DNA of 64,000 nucleotides from an uncultured Poribacteria bacterium (GTDB taxonomy: Bacteria; Poribacteria; WGA-4E; WGA-3G). Under the pieces are notes generated by a model that had not been told where the DNA came from, searched no databases, and worked only from the letters and a program-made list of their open reading frames with translations. Positions 1 through 63,990 of the stretch are shown piece by piece. How positions within the stretch are numbered: position 1 is the first letter of the stretch; every line of letters begins with the position of its first letter. Location: positions 5,186,217-5,250,216 of the forward strand of contig OX639992.1 of NCBI GenBank assembly GCA_951828515.1, written 5' to 3'. The translations under genes were made by a program, and so were the position numbers.

Positions 1-80
1 ACGCATAATTTGTTTTCTGTCCTTGAGGAAATCTGCCCGTTCGAAACCTCAATTTGAACCTATAGAGGAGCAATTGACAA

Positions 81-848
81 ATGAGGATAAAAGTCTATTA
101 TATCTGTGCTGTCCTGCTGATGTTGAGCCTATCGACACCCGCAGTCTTCGCACAAGACGCGCAAGCGGACAACCTGCTTGGGTGGTGGCTATTTGATAGC
201 GAAAAAGACGAACAAGGCAACTGGGACGATATGGATCTCCACGGTGCCGAACTCGAAGATGGTCAACTGATTGTTGAAACCGGGAAATGGGCACACGCAC
301 TCGGATACAAAGGGGACGATATCGAAGAGAAAACCTTGATGACATGGGTTGCTCTGGACAACCTCGCCGCAACGAAAGGCTCAGCACTTACGTTAGATAA
401 AGTGTCCGAAGACCAATTTAACGCGGTCGTCTACGCCGAACGCCAACCGAATCAATGGATGTCCGGAAGCAGTTGGTTCCACCGTACCGAAGACTTCCCT
501 AAAGCGCACAACGAAAAGAAAGAAGGCGAAATGGTTTACTTAGCCTTCACTTACGAAGATAAGGGTGGAACTTACGAAATAACCGGATACCGCAATGGTA
601 AGAGCCTTGGGAGTTATGAAAAAGGCGAGATCAAAATCTGGCCCACAGATGATGCTGAAATAATTTGGGGAAAACGGCATACAAACGGACTTGGCGGTCC
701 CGGAGATCTCAATGCACACATCGAGGAATCTCGAATTTACTCCGTCGCCTTGACCGAGGCGGAAGTTAATGAAATGGAAATCGGAACGCTTTCCGTTGAC
801 CCCCAAGGCAAGCTCGCTACACAATGGGCTAAACTTAAAGAGAAATAG
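81..848 (+). CDS. Secreted LamG/concanavalin-like protein with conserved C-terminal tail
   Basis: 255 aa. An N-terminal signal peptide of about 24 residues ends at VFAQ, so export is expected. The body resembles a LamG/concanavalin-like beta-sandwich: it opens with a 'GWWLFD' strand, has a 'GKRHTNG' segment and closes with 'HIEESRIYSVALTEAEV', the usual last strand of LamG_3 domains, which bind glycans or proteins. The start at 81 is preceded by GAGGAG with suitable spacing. The last 13 residues (GKLATQWAKLKEK) recur with small changes at the ends of the proteins at 921, 3874 and 37810, which suggests a shared sorting or anchoring signal. No catalytic residues are recognised. The family call is good; the ligand is unknown. 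Confidence 0.8.
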   Translation: MRIKVYYICAVLLMLSLSTPAVFAQDAQADNLLGWWLFDSEKDEQGNWDDMDLHGAELEDGQLIVETGKWAHALGYKGDDIEEKTLMTWVALDNLAATKGSALTLDKVSEDQFNAVVYAERQPNQWMSGSSWFHRTEDFPKAHNEKKEGEMVYLAFTYEDKGGTYEITGYRNGKSLGSYEKGEIKIWPTDDAEIIWGKRHTNGLGGPGDLNAHIEESRIYSVALTEAEVNEMEIGTLSVDPQGKLATQWAKLKEK

Positions 849-17532: not shown

Positions 17533-19194
17533 ATGAGAAGATTTGGGACTGAAGGGCGCGTGGAGCCTGCACAACACTATTTTGTGCCCCGCACAAACGA
17601 AATTGCCGACTTTATCAACCGCGTCAGAACTGGCAAATACATTGTCCTTTTCGCACCGCGACAAACGGGCAAAACGACATTCTTCCGGCGCGTCATCGAC
17701 GTACTCAGCGAACGGACAGGAACGGGATCACAAATTGAGGCTGCGTCCCACCAAACCGTCCGACAGAACGTTGCTTCTTCTACATCTGATGCAACCTTTT
17801 TCCCAATTCGCCTTGATTTCCAGGTGTGTCGCAATTTATCAGCCCCTGAGTTTTACACATACCTATCAAAAGGGATCCAGTCCCAAATCGAAAGCGTTTT
17901 CCAGAAACAGGGGAATCTACCTGCTCTGTCTCAATTTTTAGATGCCACGCCACTCACCAACCATATTTCGATGATTGACTTTTTCAGGGAGCTTCAGAGG
18001 CTCCTGCAAAATCGGCGGATTGCCCTGATGATAGACGAGTTTGATGGTATCCCCCAAAGCGTCCTAAGCGATTTTTTGTATGCGCTCCGCCTTATCTATC
18101 TGTCCGATGAACCTCGATGTCCACACAGTGTTGGCATCGTGGGTGTCAAGAGTATCACCCAGCTCGACTATGATCGGTCAGTTTCACCTTTCAATATCCA
18201 AGACGAATTCCGCTTACCCAACTTTACCCTTGAACAGGTGCGTGAACTCCTCGGGCAATACACGGAAGAAGTTGGGCAAGCCTTCATGCCAGAGGTCATA
18301 GAATCCATTTATAAGCAGACTGTGGGGCAACCGGTGCTGGTGAATCGGTTCGCACAGATCCTCACTGAGATGTTGGACATCCCAAAGAACCAACCGATGA
18401 CGATAGCACATTTTACAGAGGCACACACACAGCTCCTACGCGAGCGGAACACGAACATTGATCACCTCACGACTAACATCCGCAGGGATCCCCGTTTTGA
18501 AAGCGTCCTGATGCACATCATGACGCGCGATGAAGGTATAGACTTTAATTTGGACGACGACATCATCAGTAAATTAGCAACTTACGGAGTTATCAAAGAG
18601 GGTGCCGATGGTATGTGTGAAATTCTTAACCCGATTTATCTGTATCGTATCCTACGAACCTTCAAACCGACGGTGAACGGCTTAGAAGATAGATACCTTC
18701 CAGACGACACAGATAACGGCTTTGATGACTACCTCATGTCTACAGGACACATTGATATGGTGTCACTACTGAATAACTTCCGAGACTTCATTGGCCGTGC
18801 GGGTTTCAGGATACTACAAATACCGGAGACACCGCAGGAATCGGTCGGACAGTATCTTTTGATAGCATATCTTGACGCGTTTGTCAGACGGATCGGTGGT
18901 ATGATGCACATTGAAGTTCAAACAGGACGCGGGCGGATGGATCTCATTGTGACGCACAATCGACAAAAATATATCGTTGAGACCAAGATTTGGCGAGGCA
19001 CTCACTACTATGAGTCAGGAAAGCAGCAGCTCGCGAGGTATCTCAGGTTGGAGGGTGTGACCGAGAGGTTCTACGTCGTATTCGACCACAGGCAGGTGCC
19101 GGCACCTCGTGTTGAGACAGTGATCGTTGAGGGGAGGATGCTTCATTGCTATGTTATCGCGGTTGTGCAGGAGGCTCCTTCAAATCAGGTGTAG
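17533..19194 (+). CDS. AAA-type ATPase with C-terminal PD-(D/E)XK nuclease domain
   Basis: 553 aa. The N-terminal ATPase has Walker A 'APRQTGKTT' (about 41-49) and a Walker-B-like 'RRIALMIDEFDG' (about 162-173), followed by a winged-helix-like middle. The C-terminal part has the PD-(D/E)XK layout: 'GRGRMDLIV' supplies the Asp and 'KYIVETKIW' the E-x-K (about 465-487), then 'SGKQQLARYL'. This matches the family in which an AAA-like ATPase joins a restriction-endonuclease fold (PF09820/PF08011 type). Function is not established; such proteins are often linked to mobile DNA or defence. The start is the ATG at 17533 (weak ribosome-binding site). A decayed paralogue lies at 42840-44040. Confidence 0.78.
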   Translation: MRRFGTEGRVEPAQHYFVPRTNEIADFINRVRTGKYIVLFAPRQTGKTTFFRRVIDVLSERTGTGSQIEAASHQTVRQNVASSTSDATFFPIRLDFQVCRNLSAPEFYTYLSKGIQSQIESVFQKQGNLPALSQFLDATPLTNHISMIDFFRELQRLLQNRRIALMIDEFDGIPQSVLSDFLYALRLIYLSDEPRCPHSVGIVGVKSITQLDYDRSVSPFNIQDEFRLPNFTLEQVRELLGQYTEEVGQAFMPEVIESIYKQTVGQPVLVNRFAQILTEMLDIPKNQPMTIAHFTEAHTQLLRERNTNIDHLTTNIRRDPRFESVLMHIMTRDEGIDFNLDDDIISKLATYGVIKEGADGMCEILNPIYLYRILRTFKPTVNGLEDRYLPDDTDNGFDDYLMSTGHIDMVSLLNNFRDFIGRAGFRILQIPETPQESVGQYLLIAYLDAFVRRIGGMMHIEVQTGRGRMDLIVTHNRQKYIVETKIWRGTHYYESGKQQLARYLRLEGVTERFYVVFDHRQVPAPRVETVIVEGRMLHCYVIAVVQEAPSNQV

Positions 19195-19336
19195 CTGTTT
19201 AAGAGGTACTACCATTTCTAAAAGTTTATATTCCATTAACCGCCCCTTAGCACACAGGCTAACGGTTTCCTATGCTACAGAAGAACAACATGCGTAAGTC
19301 CTAATAGAATTACTTCCAGCAAAGGGAGATTTGACG

Positions 19337-20848
19337 ATGCAAACGAATTCACAGTTAAAGGAAAGCCACAAACTCACCGACGCGCAGATGCGGGAATTTA
19401 TTGTGAATGGACATCTTACGATAAAAGCCGATCTGCCGCGCAGTTTCCACGAAACCATCTATCGCAAGACGCAGGAACTCACGGCGAAAGAGGGAAATTT
19501 GGGGAACAACATCTTGCCACGCGTCCCCGAATTGCAAGCCGTTTTTGAAGAACCTGCTGTCCGTGGCGCATTTACGAGTATTCTGGGCGAGAATTACGCC
19601 ATGCATTCCCATCGGCACCCTCATCAGAATCGTCCTCACAGCGATGGACAGGGATTCCACAAGGATAGCTACTGGGGCTATCATAAAGTCCGGCACCACT
19701 GTCCGCGCTGGGCGATGGCGTTCTACTATCCACAGGACTCACCGCTGGAAATCGGGCCCTCGGCAGTCTTACCGGGAACGCAGTACTACGATACGCGTAT
19801 CACTAAGGATAACGATGGTGAATTGTCACTCAGTGGAGAAGCAGGTACCTTAACGATTATCCATTTTGACTTGTGGCATCGTGCCATGGCGAACCTGACA
19901 GACAAAACACGCTACATGATGAAGTTTCAGTTCGTTCGGATGGACGCGCCGCAGAAACCGGAGTGGAATGTGACGGATCCACATTGGAAACTGGAAGACG
20001 CTGACCCAGCAATCCCTGGGCATCAAAACACGTGGCAACATGTTTGGAATTGGGTAGCAGGCAAGTCCAATGGGCATTCAACACAGTCGGTTTCCAATGG
20101 AAACTTGGCGATGCACACTGCCGCATTGGGTGATGACAACACCGCTGTCCGATCCGGTGCCGCTGACGACTTAGGGAGGTTAGGTGAATCCGGAGCAGAG
20201 GCGATTCCGCTCCTCATCCAAGCATTGTGTGATGTTTATGAGCCTGTCCGCTTAAACGCCGCGTATGCCCTTGGATCAATTGGTGCCCCGGCTGTTCCCG
20301 AACTGATTGAAACGCTCGGTGTGGAAGACCCAATTATGCGGCGAATGGCGGCGTATGCATTAGCGGCGGTCGGTGAACCCGCTGTTCCTGCGTTGAGCGA
20401 AGCGTTGCAACATACCGAAGACACCGTTCGTGTTGAAGCCGCCTACGCTTTAGCGCAAATAGGAAATTCAGTGGAATCTGCTATCCCGGCATTAATGGAA
20501 CGCACAAAAGACGAATGCGTTGAGGTCCGTCGCTATCTCGCGGAAGCCTTCGGTGGACTGGGCCCCATTGCCGCTCCAGCTGTGCCTGTCCTAACAGATA
20601 TGGTCGCAAGTGATGAGGACGATCAAGCGCGGTTTGAAGCCGCATTAGCATTGGCACAGATTGGACCCGCATCAAGCGACGCTATTCCAGTATTAGCAAA
20701 GGCGTTCAGTGATGAAAACCGGTACGTCCGAGACAACGCTGTCTTAGCTTTAAAACGAATCGACACCCCAGAAGCAGAGTCAGCACTGTTTGACTACTTA
20801 CTGATGGCGCGATGGTGTCCGATTACAAATCGCGAAAGCACATTTTAA
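19337..20848 (+). CDS. PhyH-like dioxygenase fused to HEAT repeats
   Basis: 503 aa from the ATG eight nt behind AGGGAG; the TTG at 19331 is too close to it. Residues 1-205 form a PhyH-like Fe(II)/2-oxoglutarate oxygenase: H108-x-D110 in 'GQGFHKDSYWG', distal H181 in 'FDLWHRAMANLTDKTRY' and R192. Residues about 230-490 are HEAT/PBS-lyase-type repeats of about 31 residues, seen as 'VRLNAAYALGSIGAPAVPEL', 'MRRMAAYALAAVGEPAVPAL', 'VRVEAAYALAQIG' and 'VRRYLAEAFGGLG'. The HEAT solenoid probably binds a partner or presents a protein substrate; that is inference. The amidohydrolase at 20853 follows after only 4 nt. Confidence 0.85.
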   Translation: MQTNSQLKESHKLTDAQMREFIVNGHLTIKADLPRSFHETIYRKTQELTAKEGNLGNNILPRVPELQAVFEEPAVRGAFTSILGENYAMHSHRHPHQNRPHSDGQGFHKDSYWGYHKVRHHCPRWAMAFYYPQDSPLEIGPSAVLPGTQYYDTRITKDNDGELSLSGEAGTLTIIHFDLWHRAMANLTDKTRYMMKFQFVRMDAPQKPEWNVTDPHWKLEDADPAIPGHQNTWQHVWNWVAGKSNGHSTQSVSNGNLAMHTAALGDDNTAVRSGAADDLGRLGESGAEAIPLLIQALCDVYEPVRLNAAYALGSIGAPAVPELIETLGVEDPIMRRMAAYALAAVGEPAVPALSEALQHTEDTVRVEAAYALAQIGNSVESAIPALMERTKDECVEVRRYLAEAFGGLGPIAAPAVPVLTDMVASDEDDQARFEAALALAQIGPASSDAIPVLAKAFSDENRYVRDNAVLALKRIDTPEAESALFDYLLMARWCPITNRESTF

Positions 20849-56123: not shown

Positions 56124-57098
56124 ATGAAAAAAACGATTGCTATTTTTGTCATGGTCACTGTGACCTGTCTACTAACATGGAAATTTGTTCAGTCCGATAG
56201 TCATGAACAACCCATGTCCGCGATGGACGAGAGCAAGATAATTTTGGCAGAGTACAAATGGAATGGCGAGCCGTATCAAATCTCATTGGCTGATTTGAAC
56301 GCTGCCATCGCAGAACTGCCCGTTTATCGCCAACAGAACTATGATACTCGGGAAGACAAAGCCGAGTATCTTGAGGAATTGATAGATGAACGACTCCAGA
56401 TCCTTCGCGCTGCCGACGATGGATTTGATTCGCTTGCCGAACACGTCAAGAAGCTTGAAGACTATACCCATCAGTTGATGGTTGAAAAATTGACCGAGGC
56501 TGAAGTGGATGCCAAAATTCTCGTTACTGATGAGGATCTCATGGCATATTATCAAGCGAATTTGAGTGAATACATTGAAGAAGCGAAAGTTCGTGCAACC
56601 TGTATTACCCTTGATGACGAAGACTTTGCCAATGAGACTTTAGATGCTATTAAGGCAGGCAAAGACATTGTTGAGGTAGCGAAGGAGCTTGCAGAAGCAG
56701 GTAAACTCGCCAACGGACCTGGCACCAATGAGGACGATCCAGGGAACACCTACCTGTTTACCAAGTCCGTATCCCCACGTTGGGCGGAGTTCACTGACGC
56801 TGTCTTTGCGCAGGAGGTCGGCGAAATGACCGATATCCTTTTTGAGGTTGATGTCAACGACGAAACCTTCTATCTCATCTTCCGTAAAGAAGAGCATCAG
56901 CCGGACCGCCAGCAGGAATTCGATGAGGTCGAGGGTGATGTCCAAAGAACGATTGAGCGTGAAAAGAAACGCGCACGCATCAGTGAGTGGGTCACCGAGA
57001 TCACTGAGAAAGGCAAGTTGAAAACCTATCCTGAAAATATTCCGGAGCCGCCGAAAATGGAAGAAGCGGAAACCGAAGAATCAGAGTCAGATCAATAG
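56124..57098 (+). CDS. Parvulin-like peptidyl-prolyl isomerase/SurA-like chaperone, copy 1
   Basis: 324 aa. It starts at ATG behind a CAAGG leader. A signal peptide or membrane anchor (about 1-22) precedes an N-terminal SurA-type helical part ('EYLEELIDERLQILRAADDG', 'LMVEKLTEAEVDAKI'). The centre (about 150-260) is a parvulin-like region ('YIEEAKVRATCITLDDEDFA', 'IVEVAKELAEAG', 'WAEFTDAVFAQEVGEMTDIL'). The active-site residues of parvulins are not all evident, so it may act as a chaperone without isomerase activity. The acidic tail is short. The gene at 57264 is a paralogue. Confidence 0.78.
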   Translation: MKKTIAIFVMVTVTCLLTWKFVQSDSHEQPMSAMDESKIILAEYKWNGEPYQISLADLNAAIAELPVYRQQNYDTREDKAEYLEELIDERLQILRAADDGFDSLAEHVKKLEDYTHQLMVEKLTEAEVDAKILVTDEDLMAYYQANLSEYIEEAKVRATCITLDDEDFANETLDAIKAGKDIVEVAKELAEAGKLANGPGTNEDDPGNTYLFTKSVSPRWAEFTDAVFAQEVGEMTDILFEVDVNDETFYLIFRKEEHQPDRQQEFDEVEGDVQRTIEREKKRARISEWVTEITEKGKLKTYPENIPEPPKMEEAETEESESDQ

Positions 57099-57107
57099 GC
57101 AGGAGAA

Positions 57108-57243
57108 TAGCGGTCAGCAATCAGCCATCAGCAAAGAGGGGCTTGGGAACACAATCCACCGCTAAACGATAGTATTTCAAAGCAGGATAGATCGTTACCA
57201 AAAACCTCTTAACCGACCGCTGACAGCCGACAACCGACCGCCA
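57108..57243. repeat. Heptamer repeat cluster with inverted half
   Basis: GCGGTCAGCAATCAGCCATC on the left and ACCGACCGCTGACAGCCGAC on the right, opposed in orientation. Located between the two parvulin-like genes. Confidence 0.6.
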
Positions 57244-57263
57244 TTAAAAAAGGAGTTAGATAA

Positions 57264-58391
57264 ATGCTCACAGTAGTTGCCCGCTTCATGGGCAGAATTT
57301 TTTTAGTGATTCGCAAAGCGTTAAATGACGGAATTGGTCTAACAACAACTCTTAATGAAGTTCCGCCTGCGCCGTTGTTGCAGGCTGCTATCATTCATGA
57401 GTCCAAGTCGCGGATGATCCCCTTACTTTTAATTGGGATCCTTGTTACGCATCCTATCTTCTATAGCTGCGGCGACAAGGCGATCGGTGCTGATGGAACA
57501 GTCATCGCTGAATTTGAATGGGACGGTCAACATCGCATCACCCTTGAAGAGATGATGCAGGAAATCAGCGAACTTCCCGAATACAAGCAGCGTCAGTATC
57601 AGGACAAGGAAGGGTTGGAAACCTATATGACGCTCATGGCAGAGAGTCGACTTATTCTCAGTCTTGCGCGAGACGAAAAACTCAACGAAGACACAGAAAT
57701 TCTCAAGAAGGTTCAGGATTATCTCCACGAGTTGATGGTTAAGAAAATTACTGCGCAAGAGGTCGACGACAAGCTCTCTTTGAGTGAAGACGATTATGTT
57801 CAATACTACGAAGAGAACAAAGCGGAGTATGTTCGCCCTGAGCAGGTCAGACTTTCCTGTATCACGCTCCTCAATAAAGAGCGGTCTGATGAAGTTTACG
57901 CACAAATCAAAGAAGGCAAAGACATCCTTGAAATCGCTCAGGAACTCTCCGATCGCGGCGAACTCGTCGGTCCCGGTGCGAATCCCTCCACGCCTGGGGA
58001 CACGGACTATATTAGCCGGGATGCCTTCCCTTCGGGAACAGAACCCTTTTTAGATGCGGCGTTTGCTGCGGAAATCGGTCAGATGCACGATGGTGTCATT
58101 GAAGTCGACGTTCAAGGTCAGAAGTACTACATGATGTTCCGGAAAGACGAAGCTCGCGATGAATACCAAAAACCGTTTGAGGAGGAAGATGTTCGTAAGA
58201 GTGTCATCCGAAAGGCGGAACGCGAGAAACGACAGGAACTCATGGACAATTGGGTTACTGAACTTCGGACACGTGCTGAGGTCAAAACGTACATAGATCG
58301 CATTCCAGAAGCAGAACCTGAAGAAGCCGAAGAGGTATCGGACGAAGAGCAGTCCGAAGTACCTCCTGTGGAGGCAGAACCTGAAGAATAG
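57264..58391 (+). CDS. Parvulin-like peptidyl-prolyl isomerase/SurA-like chaperone, copy 2
   Basis: 375 aa from the ATG behind AAAGGAGTTAGATAA. Residues 1-50 are an unusual extension; residues 51-69 ('MIPLLLIGILVTHPIFYSC') look like a lipoprotein signal, so an internal start at 57414 is possible. The rest aligns with the protein at 56124: 'DYLHELMVKKITAQEVDDKL', 'QVRLSCITLLNKERSDEVYA', 'ILEIAQELSDRGELVGPGAN' and 'PFLDAAFAAEIGQMHDGVIE'. The tail is rich in Glu and Pro. It is probably a periplasmic folding factor in the same pathway as surA. Confidence 0.78.
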   Translation: MLTVVARFMGRIFLVIRKALNDGIGLTTTLNEVPPAPLLQAAIIHESKSRMIPLLLIGILVTHPIFYSCGDKAIGADGTVIAEFEWDGQHRITLEEMMQEISELPEYKQRQYQDKEGLETYMTLMAESRLILSLARDEKLNEDTEILKKVQDYLHELMVKKITAQEVDDKLSLSEDDYVQYYEENKAEYVRPEQVRLSCITLLNKERSDEVYAQIKEGKDILEIAQELSDRGELVGPGANPSTPGDTDYISRDAFPSGTEPFLDAAFAAEIGQMHDGVIEVDVQGQKYYMMFRKDEARDEYQKPFEEEDVRKSVIRKAEREKRQELMDNWVTELRTRAEVKTYIDRIPEAEPEEAEEVSDEEQSEVPPVEAEPEE

Positions 58392-58396
58392 GTTTA

Positions 58397-58483
58397 AAAG
58401 CAATCAGCAGTCGGCAGTCAGCAGTCGGTTTCCGTTGTCGTCAACGTCACTGATAGCTGACAGCTGATCGCTGATGGCTAATA
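58397..58483. repeat. Heptamer repeat cluster with inverted half
   Basis: AGCAATCAGCAGTCGGCAGT and following CAGCAGTCGG units oppose GATAGCTGACAGCTGATCGC. Located before surA; the last units run up to the SD of that gene. Confidence 0.6.
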
Positions 58484-58497
58484 AAGGAGATGTCCAC

Positions 58498-59805
58498 ATG
58501 GCATATAGAATAACTATCTACCTTATACTCATCCTACTATTCATCAGCGGTAGTGTGAGGAGCAGTGCCGCTCGCACCTTTGACAGGATCATCGCTTACG
58601 TTAATGACGATGTCGTGACCAAGCGAGAGCTTGATGTTTTGGTGAATCAGCGCGCCATGGAACTCCAACAGGTCTATCGTTTCAATGAACGGGAGGCACT
58701 CCAGGAGGCTGAACGGCAAAGATCCGACTTACTTGACCGGCTAATCAGGCAAATGCTTCTTTTAGAAGCCGCGCTGACGCTGAAGGTTACCGTCAGTGAC
58801 ATAGAGGTTGAGCAGTACATTCAAGACTTTAAAAGTAGATATAAAATTGAAACAGACGAAGAATTTAAAAAACAATTAAACAGAGAAGGTATGACACTCG
58901 TGGCGTTTCGAGAGCAGTCAGAGCGAAACCTCAAAGCGGAGAAACTTGTTATGGGAAGAATTGTCCCTCGATTGCAAGTGCGAGCGCGTGAGATCCAAAA
59001 ATTTTTTGAGGAAAATCGGGACCAACTTCCCACTAAAACAGATAAAGTCCATTTGCGGCACATTTTTGTTGCCTTTAAACCGAATCAAGCTGACCGGGAT
59101 GCCGCATTCGAAATTGTGAATGAAGCTCTGAGAGAAATTACAGCAGATAGGACAAAGTTTGAGGAGCTTGCACGACGATATACTTCTGAGCAAAACCCAA
59201 GTTCACAGGCGGGAATCCTCATAGAAGCTACTACTGAGGAACTTGAAAGGTTTCCAAAGATATTCCAGGACGTACTCACAAACTTGGAAGCCGGCAAACT
59301 CAGCGAGCCTGTTGAAGGAAACGAGGGGATTTATATTTTCACTGTCGAAGTAAAAACCGATAAGATGATTGCATTCCGGTATCTCATTATTCCCCTTACA
59401 CCAAGTGCAGAGGCTATGCAGGAAGCACGCGAACGTATTGTTGAAGTTTTCAAAAAGTTGGAAAACGGCGGAGATTTTAACGCACTCGCAGCAGCACATT
59501 CCGACGATGCAGAAACGCGAGATAACGGCGGTGACCTCGGGGTGCGTTCCTTAACGGAACTCAATCCGAAGACTCGGACAATAATTGAAGCACTCGAAGC
59601 CGGTACTTACAGCCAACCTCACGAAACTGAATCCGGTCTTCACATCTTTAAGGTTGATGAGCGAAATAGTCCAAGCCTCAGTGAAATAGAGAAAAAACAG
59701 ATCACTTCAATACTCCGCCAGCAGCGGTTCCAAGAGGAATGGGATGCATATACCAATAAGCTTCTTGAAAACGCTTATATTCAAATTGAACTGAAAGATT
59801 TTTAA
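58498..59805 (+). CDS. surA: Periplasmic chaperone SurA (SurA_N plus two parvulin domains)
   Basis: 435 aa from the ATG eight nt behind GGAG; the ATG at 58474 lies inside repeats. A signal peptide (about 1-26) precedes the SurA N-terminal domain 'FDRIIAYVNDDVVTKRELDV' with 'LLDRLIRQMLLLEAALTLKV'. Parvulin 1 is near 180-283 ('DKVHLRHIFVAFKP', 'FEELARRYTSEQNPSSQAGI') and parvulin 2 near 290-393 ('FRYLIIPLTPSAEAMQEARE', 'LAAAHSDDAETRDNGGDLGV'). The layout equals Escherichia coli SurA, which folds outer-membrane proteins, notably LptD. It lies 168 nt upstream of the LptD-like gene. Confidence 0.9.
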   Translation: MAYRITIYLILILLFISGSVRSSAARTFDRIIAYVNDDVVTKRELDVLVNQRAMELQQVYRFNEREALQEAERQRSDLLDRLIRQMLLLEAALTLKVTVSDIEVEQYIQDFKSRYKIETDEEFKKQLNREGMTLVAFREQSERNLKAEKLVMGRIVPRLQVRAREIQKFFEENRDQLPTKTDKVHLRHIFVAFKPNQADRDAAFEIVNEALREITADRTKFEELARRYTSEQNPSSQAGILIEATTEELERFPKIFQDVLTNLEAGKLSEPVEGNEGIYIFTVEVKTDKMIAFRYLIIPLTPSAEAMQEARERIVEVFKKLENGGDFNALAAAHSDDAETRDNGGDLGVRSLTELNPKTRTIIEALEAGTYSQPHETESGLHIFKVDERNSPSLSEIEKKQITSILRQQRFQEEWDAYTNKLLENAYIQIELKDF

Positions 59806-59973: not shown

Positions 59974-62900
59974 ATGACTTATCCGCAAGGTAAATTAGAA
60001 AACCAACATCACCCCTCCCTTATCCGAATGTCCAGAATTGAGCGCATAGCACTGGTGCTATTTGTCATTGCTTGTCTCTTTGGTCACCCAGTCCGGTTCG
60101 GTATCGCGCAAGAAGCAGAACCCTCTGACCCACCTGCTGCTGAAGAATCTGCAGATCAGACAGAAGAGCAGGAAGGATCCGGCTCAGAGCGGTTGAACCC
60201 GGAGACAGATGTCCCTGAAGAAGGTATGGTAATCGGCGATGGCGACGATATGACGATGGTTGATAATTTTGTCCAAATTCACGGAAATGCGCTTATCAAA
60301 TTTGAGGATGTCATTCTCCGGGCAGACCATATTTGGGCAGATTTCGACGATAATCTAATGCGGGCAACCGGGAACGTCCATCTGAAAACCGGCGACGAAG
60401 AGACTTACTCCGATGAACTCATCTTCAACCTCGAAAACAAAAAAGGGATTGCCCGGAACGGGTTTACATTCAGCGACCCGTGGTACTTCGGTGGCAGTGA
60501 AATCTTTAAGATACAAGAAGACCGCTCCTATATCCGCGGCGCAACCTTGACGACCTGCTCGCTGAAATATCCTCACTACTACTTCAGTGTTTCGAGAGTC
60601 ATTGTCCGAATGAATCAGGAGATGATCGCCAAAAATATCGTCTTGCGTATTGGTGGGTTTCCACTCTTCTATTTCCCCGTAATGCGTCGAGATTTACGGA
60701 AGGGTAAGATCGCAAAGATAATTGTCAAAATTGGGACGGATAGCTACCAAGGTCCCAACATTAGTATCATCTTACCTGTGGCACGTAAACGCCGTTATGA
60801 TGGAGCACTACTTTACGACAGAAGTTCAAAACGCGGGCAAGGGTTCGGGTTTGAAGGTAAATACCGATTCAATGATACACAGTTCCAAGAAATCTATATC
60901 CCAATTCCACCTGATGCACCACCGGACCAGCGCACGAAACTCAAAGAAAAAGCAGAGGAATTACAAGACCGACTTGACGGCGAATACGATCGCTATTGGC
61001 TGCGGCAAATTTTCATTGAATATAAAATCACAGAGGATGATGTCAATCGTGCAAAAGATAAAGCAGCAGATGTCCTCGAACAGCTCCAAGAAGAGGGCGC
61101 TGACTTTGCACAAATCGCACAGAGCAATTCTGACCACTTTGACACCCGTTACGATGGTGGGGATTTGGGATTCCTCGTCCCCGGTGAAGTTGGCGAGGAC
61201 GGTGAACCCAAACTCGATCCTGCTTTAGAGGAAGCCGCCTTCGCACTACAAGAGGGCGAAATTAGCCCTATCGTCCAAACCGAATCTGCCTTCCACATCC
61301 TTAAAGCCGATCGTGTTGTTGATGTCTATGGCGAACGTGAAATTAAACTCCGTCGCATTGATATTGCTATTAGCGCGAGCGAAGATACTGAATACGTCCT
61401 GCGCGAATTGGCGGATGATATGCTCAAACGCGCCCACGAAGGTGAATCCTTTGAACAACTTATACACGTCCCTGATCAATTTTCAGACATCGCCGAACCG
61501 ACCTTATCCGAACCTAATGAGGGTAACGGATTACTCTTAAATGAGATGGAATCCTCGTGGCGCTCCGCAGTTAGACGATTAGAGAATCCAGGAGATGTTA
61601 TTGAACGCCGACCTATCACTATGCCTGAAGGTCTTTACCTTTTCCAACTGATTGAAAAATCGGAGACGCCGACTTTCGAGGAACTCGCTGAACAGTTTGA
61701 GGCAGAGTGGGATGAATTTTACGAAGGGGTGGTGAATCCTGCACCGGAAGATATTGAGGAAGACGGGGACTCGCAAGATACGACTGAAGCAGCGGTCAGT
61801 GATCAGCAATCAGCGGTCGGCAAAGATTCCGACGACGACGTTTCTTCTCTTACTGAAGGTTTCCAACAACCGATGGTTTCCGATAGCCAGTCTTCTGAAA
61901 GCCGAAGGCTGGAGGCTGAAGACTATACCCCCAATACTGATGAAAATCAGAGCGTAGAGCCGATCGAGGAGGATACCGATGAAAACCAGACCGCAGAGCA
62001 GACTGAGGAGGATACTGGTGAAAATCAGGGCGTAGCGCCGGAAGAGCCAGAGACTGAGACAGAAGACGAAACGGCTTCCGATCAGTCTGATGGCGAAGCC
62101 GTGTCCGAAGATCCCTCTACTGAAGAAGGTGCAGAAGATGAGGACGAATTGAAGATCTACCGGAAACACGGTTTTCGCGGTCGGTGGGAAGATCCGAGTG
62201 CCGTCGCTTCAGATGCACAGAGGTTATACGCCGGTGAATTTAGCAGGCGTCCTATTCAAACCAAAAAGTCGTTTCGACTCATCAAAGTTGATAGAAAGAG
62301 AACCTATCGAGGCGATATTTACTTCTACGGTGCAGACCGGTACTCTTACGAGCGGCAGAACGCTACACGCATCGGTAGGCGGTGGATTATGCGATGGGGG
62401 CATACGCAATCCTTTTATACCCCGTGGGATAACCGTGAAGAAGGTAGACGCCCTATCAATTTTACGGGTAGGACTGAGCTGCAAGCCCGTAGTTTTAAGG
62501 AAGAGCTGAAACTCCCCGGAGAATCCACGCTTAGATCTTTCGGAATACTCACCTACGGATCTGGTTTTTCCACCGTTTCTGATACCGATCGAGATGAGAA
62601 TGATAACCTCACGTTTTCGCGGGAAACCATTGGAGATATTACGGGTAGGATCGAAGTTCGACACGTTCACGATTTCACGGGTGAAGGCACAACCTCACTA
62701 CAGAAACTCCCGCAATTCACTGTGAATTTCTCACGGATGCGTGTGAGTGCCCTACCACTCTTTGGGAGTCTGAACAATCGTATGGAAAGCGTTGCTGAAA
62801 AGTTCAAAACTGAGAAACCTTTTCTCTCATTATTTTCTATTCCAACCCTGGAAAGCACAAGTTTCGACTTGGATGTTGAACTCGGTAACTTCTTTAGAGA

Positions 62901-63990
62901 GGTGTATAAGGGCAAAGCAGGCGAAGAAAGAGATGTATATCTACAGACGCTGGATCTCGGATTCGATGTCCGTAAGCAATCAACACTCCTGATTACACCC
63001 TTACGGGAACTCCAGATGAGTTTGGATCTCAATACAAATATGGTATGGCATGACCAAGACCAGGAGAAGAATAGGAACATCATAAAAAGGGTCTTCAGTT
63101 TTAATGGATCCGCTACAAACACACTCTTCCGAGTTTTCAACGTCGGCTATATCCCTGGGCTCCGAAAGTTGAGACACGAAATCCAATCCTCACTCCGATT
63201 TAATTATCAGCCTGCTGTTGATGAAGATGATAATCTCTATCCTTTCGGTCCCAGCACCTATTTCTATGAACGGAAGAGACTCACCTATAACTTCAATACG
63301 AATTTTGAAATTAAGACTCGACGGAGCCAATCGGCACACCGTATCTTCTATTTTGATACTCGGCTCACCGCTGATTTCACGGATTTCGATCCTTTGTATA
63401 GGCGGAAGTATGAACCCATTGAGAGCGATTTCACATTCGTCCCACTTCCGAGTCGAAACCTAAACGTGACCGTCCGCTTTACACACGACCCTAACCCACA
63501 TCCTGACGATGGAAAGCAATTTAAAATGGTTGGGTTCCGTAGCAACATCCGTTACACCCGACCGTCTTGGAATATCAGTCTCGGAAACTCATTCAGCAAG
63601 CGGCATACCTCAAGACGGACTTCTCGAGCGATTACTGCCACTGGACGCTACCGCTTTAGCCAAGACCTCGAATTCGACGTGAGTCTTATCTATTATCCGA
63701 TTGATGGGCAATTCTATTCACAACGCATCAGTATGACGCGTAATCTTCACGATTGGAACCTCCGTATCTCTTGGAACCGTGTCGGCATTAAGCGCGATGA
63801 TGTCCCCTCAGCCTACAACAGCGTCCGTCAGGACTTCACGTTCCAGGTGAACCTGATTCAGGAACCTGCGGTTTCAATGGGTGTCGGTTATGACGCAACG
63901 ACTGAAACTTGGGGACTCCGTACCTTACCTGCAGGCGCGCCTTACAATGCATTCGGTACCGGAAACTCACTCGGCAGATCCTATTTTTAA
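59974..63990 (+). CDS. lptD: LptD-like LPS-assembly outer-membrane protein with inserted parvulin domains
   Basis: 1338 aa, far longer than LptD (about 780). A signal peptide (about 19-46) and an acidic linker lead to an LptA/OstA-like jellyroll (about 75-310: 'NFVQIHGNALIKFEDVILRA', 'LTTCSLKYPHYYFSVSRV', 'PLFYFPVMRRDLRKGK'). Residues about 316-450 form a parvulin-like domain ('LRQIFIEYKI', 'FAQIAQSNSDHFDTRYDGGD', 'FALQEGEISPIVQTESAFHI'); about 450-575 looks like a second, degenerate one. An acidic low-complexity stretch (about 595-735) precedes the beta-barrel, which ends in Phe like a beta-signal. It starts at 59974; the ATG at 60028 would suit the signal peptide. LptD inserts lipopolysaccharide into the outer membrane. 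Confidence 0.8.
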   Translation: MTYPQGKLENQHHPSLIRMSRIERIALVLFVIACLFGHPVRFGIAQEAEPSDPPAAEESADQTEEQEGSGSERLNPETDVPEEGMVIGDGDDMTMVDNFVQIHGNALIKFEDVILRADHIWADFDDNLMRATGNVHLKTGDEETYSDELIFNLENKKGIARNGFTFSDPWYFGGSEIFKIQEDRSYIRGATLTTCSLKYPHYYFSVSRVIVRMNQEMIAKNIVLRIGGFPLFYFPVMRRDLRKGKIAKIIVKIGTDSYQGPNISIILPVARKRRYDGALLYDRSSKRGQGFGFEGKYRFNDTQFQEIYIPIPPDAPPDQRTKLKEKAEELQDRLDGEYDRYWLRQIFIEYKITEDDVNRAKDKAADVLEQLQEEGADFAQIAQSNSDHFDTRYDGGDLGFLVPGEVGEDGEPKLDPALEEAAFALQEGEISPIVQTESAFHILKADRVVDVYGEREIKLRRIDIAISASEDTEYVLRELADDMLKRAHEGESFEQLIHVPDQFSDIAEPTLSEPNEGNGLLLNEMESSWRSAVRRLENPGDVIERRPITMPEGLYLFQLIEKSETPTFEELAEQFEAEWDEFYEGVVNPAPEDIEEDGDSQDTTEAAVSDQQSAVGKDSDDDVSSLTEGFQQPMVSDSQSSESRRLEAEDYTPNTDENQSVEPIEEDTDENQTAEQTEEDTGENQGVAPEEPETETEDETASDQSDGEAVSEDPSTEEGAEDEDELKIYRKHGFRGRWEDPSAVASDAQRLYAGEFSRRPIQTKKSFRLIKVDRKRTYRGDIYFYGADRYSYERQNATRIGRRWIMRWGHTQSFYTPWDNREEGRRPINFTGRTELQARSFKEELKLPGESTLRSFGILTYGSGFSTVSDTDRDENDNLTFSRETIGDITGRIEVRHVHDFTGEGTTSLQKLPQFTVNFSRMRVSALPLFGSLNNRMESVAEKFKTEKPFLSLFSIPTLESTSFDLDVELGNFFREVYKGKAGEERDVYLQTLDLGFDVRKQSTLLITPLRELQMSLDLNTNMVWHDQDQEKNRNIIKRVFSFNGSATNTLFRVFNVGYIPGLRKLRHEIQSSLRFNYQPAVDEDDNLYPFGPSTYFYERKRLTYNFNTNFEIKTRRSQSAHRIFYFDTRLTADFTDFDPLYRRKYEPIESDFTFVPLPSRNLNVTVRFTHDPNPHPDDGKQFKMVGFRSNIRYTRPSWNISLGNSFSKRHTSRRTSRAITATGRYRFSQDLEFDVSLIYYPIDGQFYSQRISMTRNLHDWNLRISWNRVGIKRDDVPSAYNSVRQDFTFQVNLIQEPAVSMGVGYDATTETWGLRTLPAGAPYNAFGTGNSLGRSYF
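61788..61828 (+). repeat. Intergenic-type heptamer repeats inside the lptD-like reading frame
   Basis: GCAGCGGTCAGTGATCAGCA and CAGCGGTCGGCAAAG match the clusters at 13541 and 57108 but are translated here ('AAVSDQQSAVGKDS') in the acidic linker of the LptD-like protein. Confidence 0.65.

Follow-up and report, generated by a model that had tools for sequence, protein, structure and literature searches.

In a window of 64,000 nucleotides, the whole stretch of DNA that we analysed from an uncultured member of Candidatus Poribacteria, we found a lptD gene whose product carries parvulin modules within its barrel sequence (Table 1). The gene is a single open frame of 1338 codons without internal stop, on a single 5.85-Mb contig. 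It is preceded, on the same strand, by mfd, two single-parvulin genes and surA, which gives a run of seven parvulin modules: one, one, two in surA and three in LptD. The two single-parvulin genes occupy window positions 56124-58391, and the order of mfd, the two parvulin genes, surA and lptD is kept in relatives. The surA gene adjoins lptD in the loci of the window's order and in both genomes outside its class. Two further observations concern surrounding genes. At positions 17533-20845 of the window, an AAA-like protein precedes one that has HEAT repeats and matches PhyH. In another locus (L139, 5482-9982), the open reading frames downstream of lptD read as a transposase-like frame and as genes resembling those of type I restriction-modification.

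Table 1. Features of the lptD locus, with residue numbers of LptD and positions in the window
Feature	Position	Strand	Basis
surA, two parvulins, directly upstream of lptD	58474..59805	+	Pfam; neighbourhood
lptD with parvulin insert	59974..63990	+	one ORF; PF19838 and PF00639; gene in 82 of 85 phylum genomes
Putative LptA-like N-domain (periplasmic), about residues 79-225	60208..60648	+	alignment via LptDs of other phyla to solved LptD/LptA; direct Pfam match weak
Barrel strands equivalent to beta-1 to beta-4, residues 226-302	60649..60879	+	alignment with outgroup LptDs and, through these, PDB 8h1r, 7omm, 5iva
Parvulin module A, first part (beta1-alpha1), residues 303-337	60880..60984	+	AF2 strand 299-310, helix 317-335, high pLDDT
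Parvulin module B, residues 338-453	60985..61332	+	PF00639, 81.5 bits; AF2 pLDDT mostly 80-95; SurA-like fold
Parvulin module C, residues 454-564, sequence-degenerate here	61333..61665	+	AF2 pLDDT 77-93
Module A, alpha2, residues 565-587	61666..61734	+	AF2; residue conservation
Acidic disordered linker within module A, about residues 588-727	61735..62154	+	pLDDT about 30; composition
Module A, last part (beta2-alpha4-beta3-beta4), residues 728-779	62155..62310	+	AF2 pLDDT mostly 56-86; spliced PF00639 match
Rest of barrel, beta-5 to C-terminus, residues 780-1338	62311..63987	+	LptD_2 at 959-1089; beta-5 aligned to outgroup and PDB LptDs

The LptD protein and its parvulin insert

The 1338-residue protein is a true LptD from a member of Candidatus Poribacteria, and its gene is intact and conserved. 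In Pfam searches it matched LptD_2 (PF19838) at residues 959-1089 with 24.7 bits, barely above the cut-off of 22.5 (a LptD from outside the window's class, at locus L129, reached 35.9 bits), and Rotamase (PF00639) at residues 346-446, in module B, with 81.5 bits (E 9e-23, cut-off 21.7). Direct matches of the N-domain were weak (OstA_2, PF13100, E 0.17; PF03968, 13.4 bits, below the cut-off of 20.4), and its LptA-like nature is supported indirectly, by alignment with normal LptDs of other phyla, themselves alignable to solved LptD and LptA. With solved LptDs (e.g., PDB 5iva, 7omm, 8h1r) the protein shares the pattern of barrel strands, a LptD_2 match over the cut-off and probably the LptA-like N-domain, but it differs from them by an addition of about 475 residues at turn T2, and from usual LptDs in having lost the barrel cysteine of the inter-domain disulfide. 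A working line of LPS export is plausible in this organism, because its genome also encodes LpxC (288 bits), an enzyme of the lipid A/LPS pathway, a homologue of LptE (31.3 bits) located elsewhere, and a LptA-like gene.

Alignment with relatives and with normal LptDs of other phyla places the start of the extra sequence after residue 302 and its end at around residue 779. The strands were counted from outgroup LptDs aligned to solved LptDs, with beta-2 anchored at Y247-W249 of E. coli LptD. In these alignments four barrel strands precede the insert, and its site lies between the equivalents of beta-4 and beta-5, i.e., in periplasmic turn T2 (named as in PMC4353691, which numbers the extracellular loops L1-13 and the periplasmic turns T1-12 and has T12 joining beta-24 and beta-25). 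The topology rests on alignment because a whole-protein structure prediction of a 1174-residue relative gave a pLDDT of 46.5 and was poor across the barrel. We are close to certain of this anatomy, a LptD with a parvulin insert in T2. From its site, the insert should hang in the periplasm beneath the barrel, near the N-domain and the seam between beta-1 and beta-26. The residues at its junctions are nearly invariant in 67 LptDs.

The insert consists of three parvulins, in which modules B and C sit in the loop between alpha1 and alpha2 of a split parvulin A (residues 303-337 plus 565-779). An AF2 model of residues 290-787 was confident on A, B and C (pLDDT mostly 75-95) and disordered on the acidic linker. 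Its parvulin-fold matches had Z-scores of about 9-16 (VIA-align), led by 8hm4, a PPIase with two parvulins (Z 15.7), and by SurA (Z 12.5). Pin1 also matched (Z 9.8), with only about 97 residues over the range 8..485 of the model, which fits a parvulin A split in two. The first parvulin of SurA (P1) aligned to 50..274, which hints at a pairing between the first strand of B and the last one of C. These match ranges suggest that B and C form a swapped or nested pair rather than a tandem one. Such a pairing would fit the short linkers (about four residues on each side) and the conserved turn Y452-G453, and also the junction itself, where T565, F568 and A572 are invariant and P566 is found in 66 of the 67 LptDs.

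Comparison with relatives reveals modules that are hard to see in the window's protein. Module C alone had 16.7 bits for PF00639, under the cut-off, and the homologous module at locus L076 had 87 bits. When module A was spliced from deep relatives that have no linker, it matched PF00639 end to end with 58-80 bits, and that of L068 scored 38 bits, also above the cut-off. Even unaltered, the proteins of L074 and L073 gave three Rotamase stretches each, and that of L129 gave four. The acidic linker (51 D/E vs 4 K/R in residues 590-727) is an expansion within module A that is confined to the window's order; the deep lineages lack it, and in the four proteins measured it spans 33-138 residues. As a separate observation, a fourth parvulin occurs at another site of the barrel in the LptDs of L129 (residues about 764-880) and L131 (about 261-380), both outside the window's class. 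It looks circularly permuted, with beta1-alpha1 last.

The original prediction, made from the sequence of the window alone, is confirmed in part: there is a LptD-like protein in which a parvulin module is fused to the barrel client, downstream of a separate surA, with a rotamase-like fold in the region of residues 316-575 that the structure prediction recovers. Of the profiles it named, Rotamase (PF00639) matched, and the OstA profile PF03968 stayed below its cut-off. The function that it proposed, cis assistance in folding or a control of the barrel or its plug, is possible. Its outline of the insert has to be redrawn. The insert had been placed between the LptA-like domain and the barrel, and lies after four barrel strands; it had been given about 260 residues ending at 575, and reaches to about 779; and what had been read as one parvulin plus a degenerate second are three modules.

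Distribution and origin

All but three of the phylum's 85 genomes gave a LptD match (82), and the three exceptions (G014, G027, G049) are fragmented assemblies. The insert was found in all 81 LptDs where this stretch could be tested, and the 82nd (in G068) has a contig break at the insert. Both genomes outside the window's class (G060 and G061) have it, which makes the insert as old as the phylum as sampled. The original prediction had proposed a survey of related LptDs for the same insert, and had held that this organisation was little described. The survey found it throughout, and the open-access literature that we searched described no LptD-parvulin fusion and linked Poribacteria neither to LptD nor to parvulin.

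The fusion was absent from the matches listed in about 300 genomes of other phyla. Among those listed, LptD matches end at around profile position 300, in frames of mostly 660-820 residues, and the parvulin matches belong to other frames, about 430-640 residues long. The best listed match outside the phylum (E 1e-41) is far weaker than any fused protein. Searches for the fusion centred on three other phyla covered 2, 6 and 1 genomes, and carry little weight. A profile of the insert matched SurAs of many phyla. A tree of tandem parvulins allows a single origin of the insert (support 70/47), and gives no sign that the neighbouring surA was its source. The explanation that we favour is that the T2 insert arose in the ancestor of the phylum.

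Possible roles of the insert

In E. coli, LptD is essential, folds slowly and requires SurA, BAM and disulfide exchange. Its folding is orders of magnitude slower than that of smaller barrels (PMC6887485). Our preferred reading, to which we give a probability of roughly 45%, is that the insert is a cis-acting, mostly non-catalytic client-binding or chaperone module for the assembly of LptD itself. On this view, turn T2, between beta-4 and beta-5, would have been expanded in the ancestor of the phylum by a SurA-type set of parvulins, with A carrying B and C. The modules would serve chiefly as a client-binding chaperone, covalently attached and largely without catalysis, that may hold late-assembling segments of the barrel or the N-domain, may help pass the chain to BAM during the slow assembly of LptD, or both, and they might divide this labour with the neighbouring SurA. 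The SurA-like predicted fold, the periplasmic site, the adjoining surA and the SurAs without parvulins of one family (see below) are consistent with such a role. Most lineages retain a complete SurA, so that help given in cis would be partly redundant, and conservation across the phylum fits a structural role equally well.

Such a structural role can be pictured as bracing: the insert would support the N-domain, the LptA bridge or the lumen gate of mature LptD, and might stand in for the inter-domain disulfide of other LptDs. Turn T2 faces the periplasm and is four strands away from the gate, and the near invariance of the junctions would suit a brace. The cysteines point in the same direction. 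In E. coli LptD the equivalent residues join the N-domain and T12 (PMC4353691), and in seven outgroup LptDs and that of L129 the N-domain cysteine co-occurs with the cysteine of a LHCW motif in the barrel; this pair is a feature of many LptDs, and is not required of all. The barrel cysteine is lost in every LptD of the window's class whose sequence reaches that point. In the window the motif reads LHDW (residue 1260, positions 63751-63753) and the N-domain cysteine is kept (residue 195, positions 60556-60558), as the single cysteine of the mature protein. Yet the LptD of L129 has both the insert and the cysteine pair, which argues against an origin of the insert as a substitute for the disulfide. 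Modules B and C also diverge somewhat faster than the N-domain, and a disordered acidic linker within module A would be odd in a rigid brace. On balance we regard bracing as a serious rival, somewhat less probable than the cis-acting module. A replacement for LptE or the plug was also considered for the insert, and is improbable because a LptE homologue is encoded elsewhere in the genome.

The modules could also work in trans, making LptD a general chaperone anchored in the outer membrane, a kind of tethered SurA that receives other barrel proteins. This would agree with the SurA-like tandem fold, and with what is found in family f5, where in the five genomes seen the gene adjoining lptD encodes a SurA of about 225-235 residues that consists of the core without parvulins. 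We searched the rest of those f5 genomes for a full-length SurA and found none. The core-only gene lies at 5865-6539 in L073, and its counterparts stand upstream of lptD in L077, L080, L081 and L082. Among SurAs in general, 99.5% have at least one PPIase domain and about 0.5% of homologues are core-only (PMC11401910); those of f5 are likewise cores without parvulin, but differ from these in adjoining a LptD with three parvulins. Against an action in trans, full-length SurA and two more parvulin genes adjoin lptD in the window's genome, and we saw no sign of trans clients. LptD is moreover a low-copy machine in known bacteria. We therefore consider a general chaperone improbable.

Even less probable is an active proline isomerase working on LptD or its neighbours. 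The strong Rotamase score of module B (81.5 bits) speaks for it, together with the second active-site histidine (H441), kept in 59 of 67 LptDs, and the GG motif, kept in most of them. But the position of the first histidine of module B holds Q, R or E in all 67, and the second is gone in every deep lineage examined. The corresponding positions are mostly R and Y in module C and mostly E and R in module A, so that the histidine pair is incomplete in each. Catalysis by the insert is doubtful, judging from these sequences, because both histidines are mostly lost. In Pin1 the pair reportedly has a structural role, and for this reason the insert may have some PPIase activity. Finally, a chimera of surA and lptD made by misassembly or frameshift, which the adjacency of the two genes might evoke and which the original prediction had named as a possible refutation, has practically no chance of being true, because all 81 testable genomes, whose many assemblies include further single-contig ones, show the same architecture, the frame has no internal stop, and a separate surA is also present.

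A more detailed version of the cis-acting reading would have three nested parvulins on one periplasmic turn, the inner pair possibly strand-swapped, acting in cis with SurA in assembly, while the SurA of one lineage ceded its parvulins. We put this forward tentatively, as something that may well turn out otherwise.

Relation to known foldases and meaning

LptD, parvulins and SurA are all well known, and of parvulin modules within the barrel sequence of LptD we found no description in the open-access literature. Modules B and C resemble SurA, which has a core plus the parvulins P1 and P2, and SurA-like PPIases in fold and arrangement. The insert differs from SurA in that it has no SurA core (Pfam found no SurA_N match in the window's LptD, and the core is encoded by the separate upstream gene), sits in the barrel of the client, has a third parvulin that surrounds the pair, and has mostly lost the active-site histidines. 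In PrsA and PpiD a parvulin is borne as an insert within another domain. The LptD insert shares with these foldases this layout and the fold matches, but their hosts are a chaperone core or a membrane-anchored foldase, whereas the host here is an outer-membrane barrel.

The Poribacteria LptDs bear on how the periplasmic side of a barrel tolerates large inserts. The fusion, together with the loss of the cysteine pair in one class and of the SurA parvulins in one family, amounts to a natural experiment on the role of the parvulins of SurA. In these sponge-associated bacteria, the protein that places lipopolysaccharide on the cell surface may help to fold or to brace itself.
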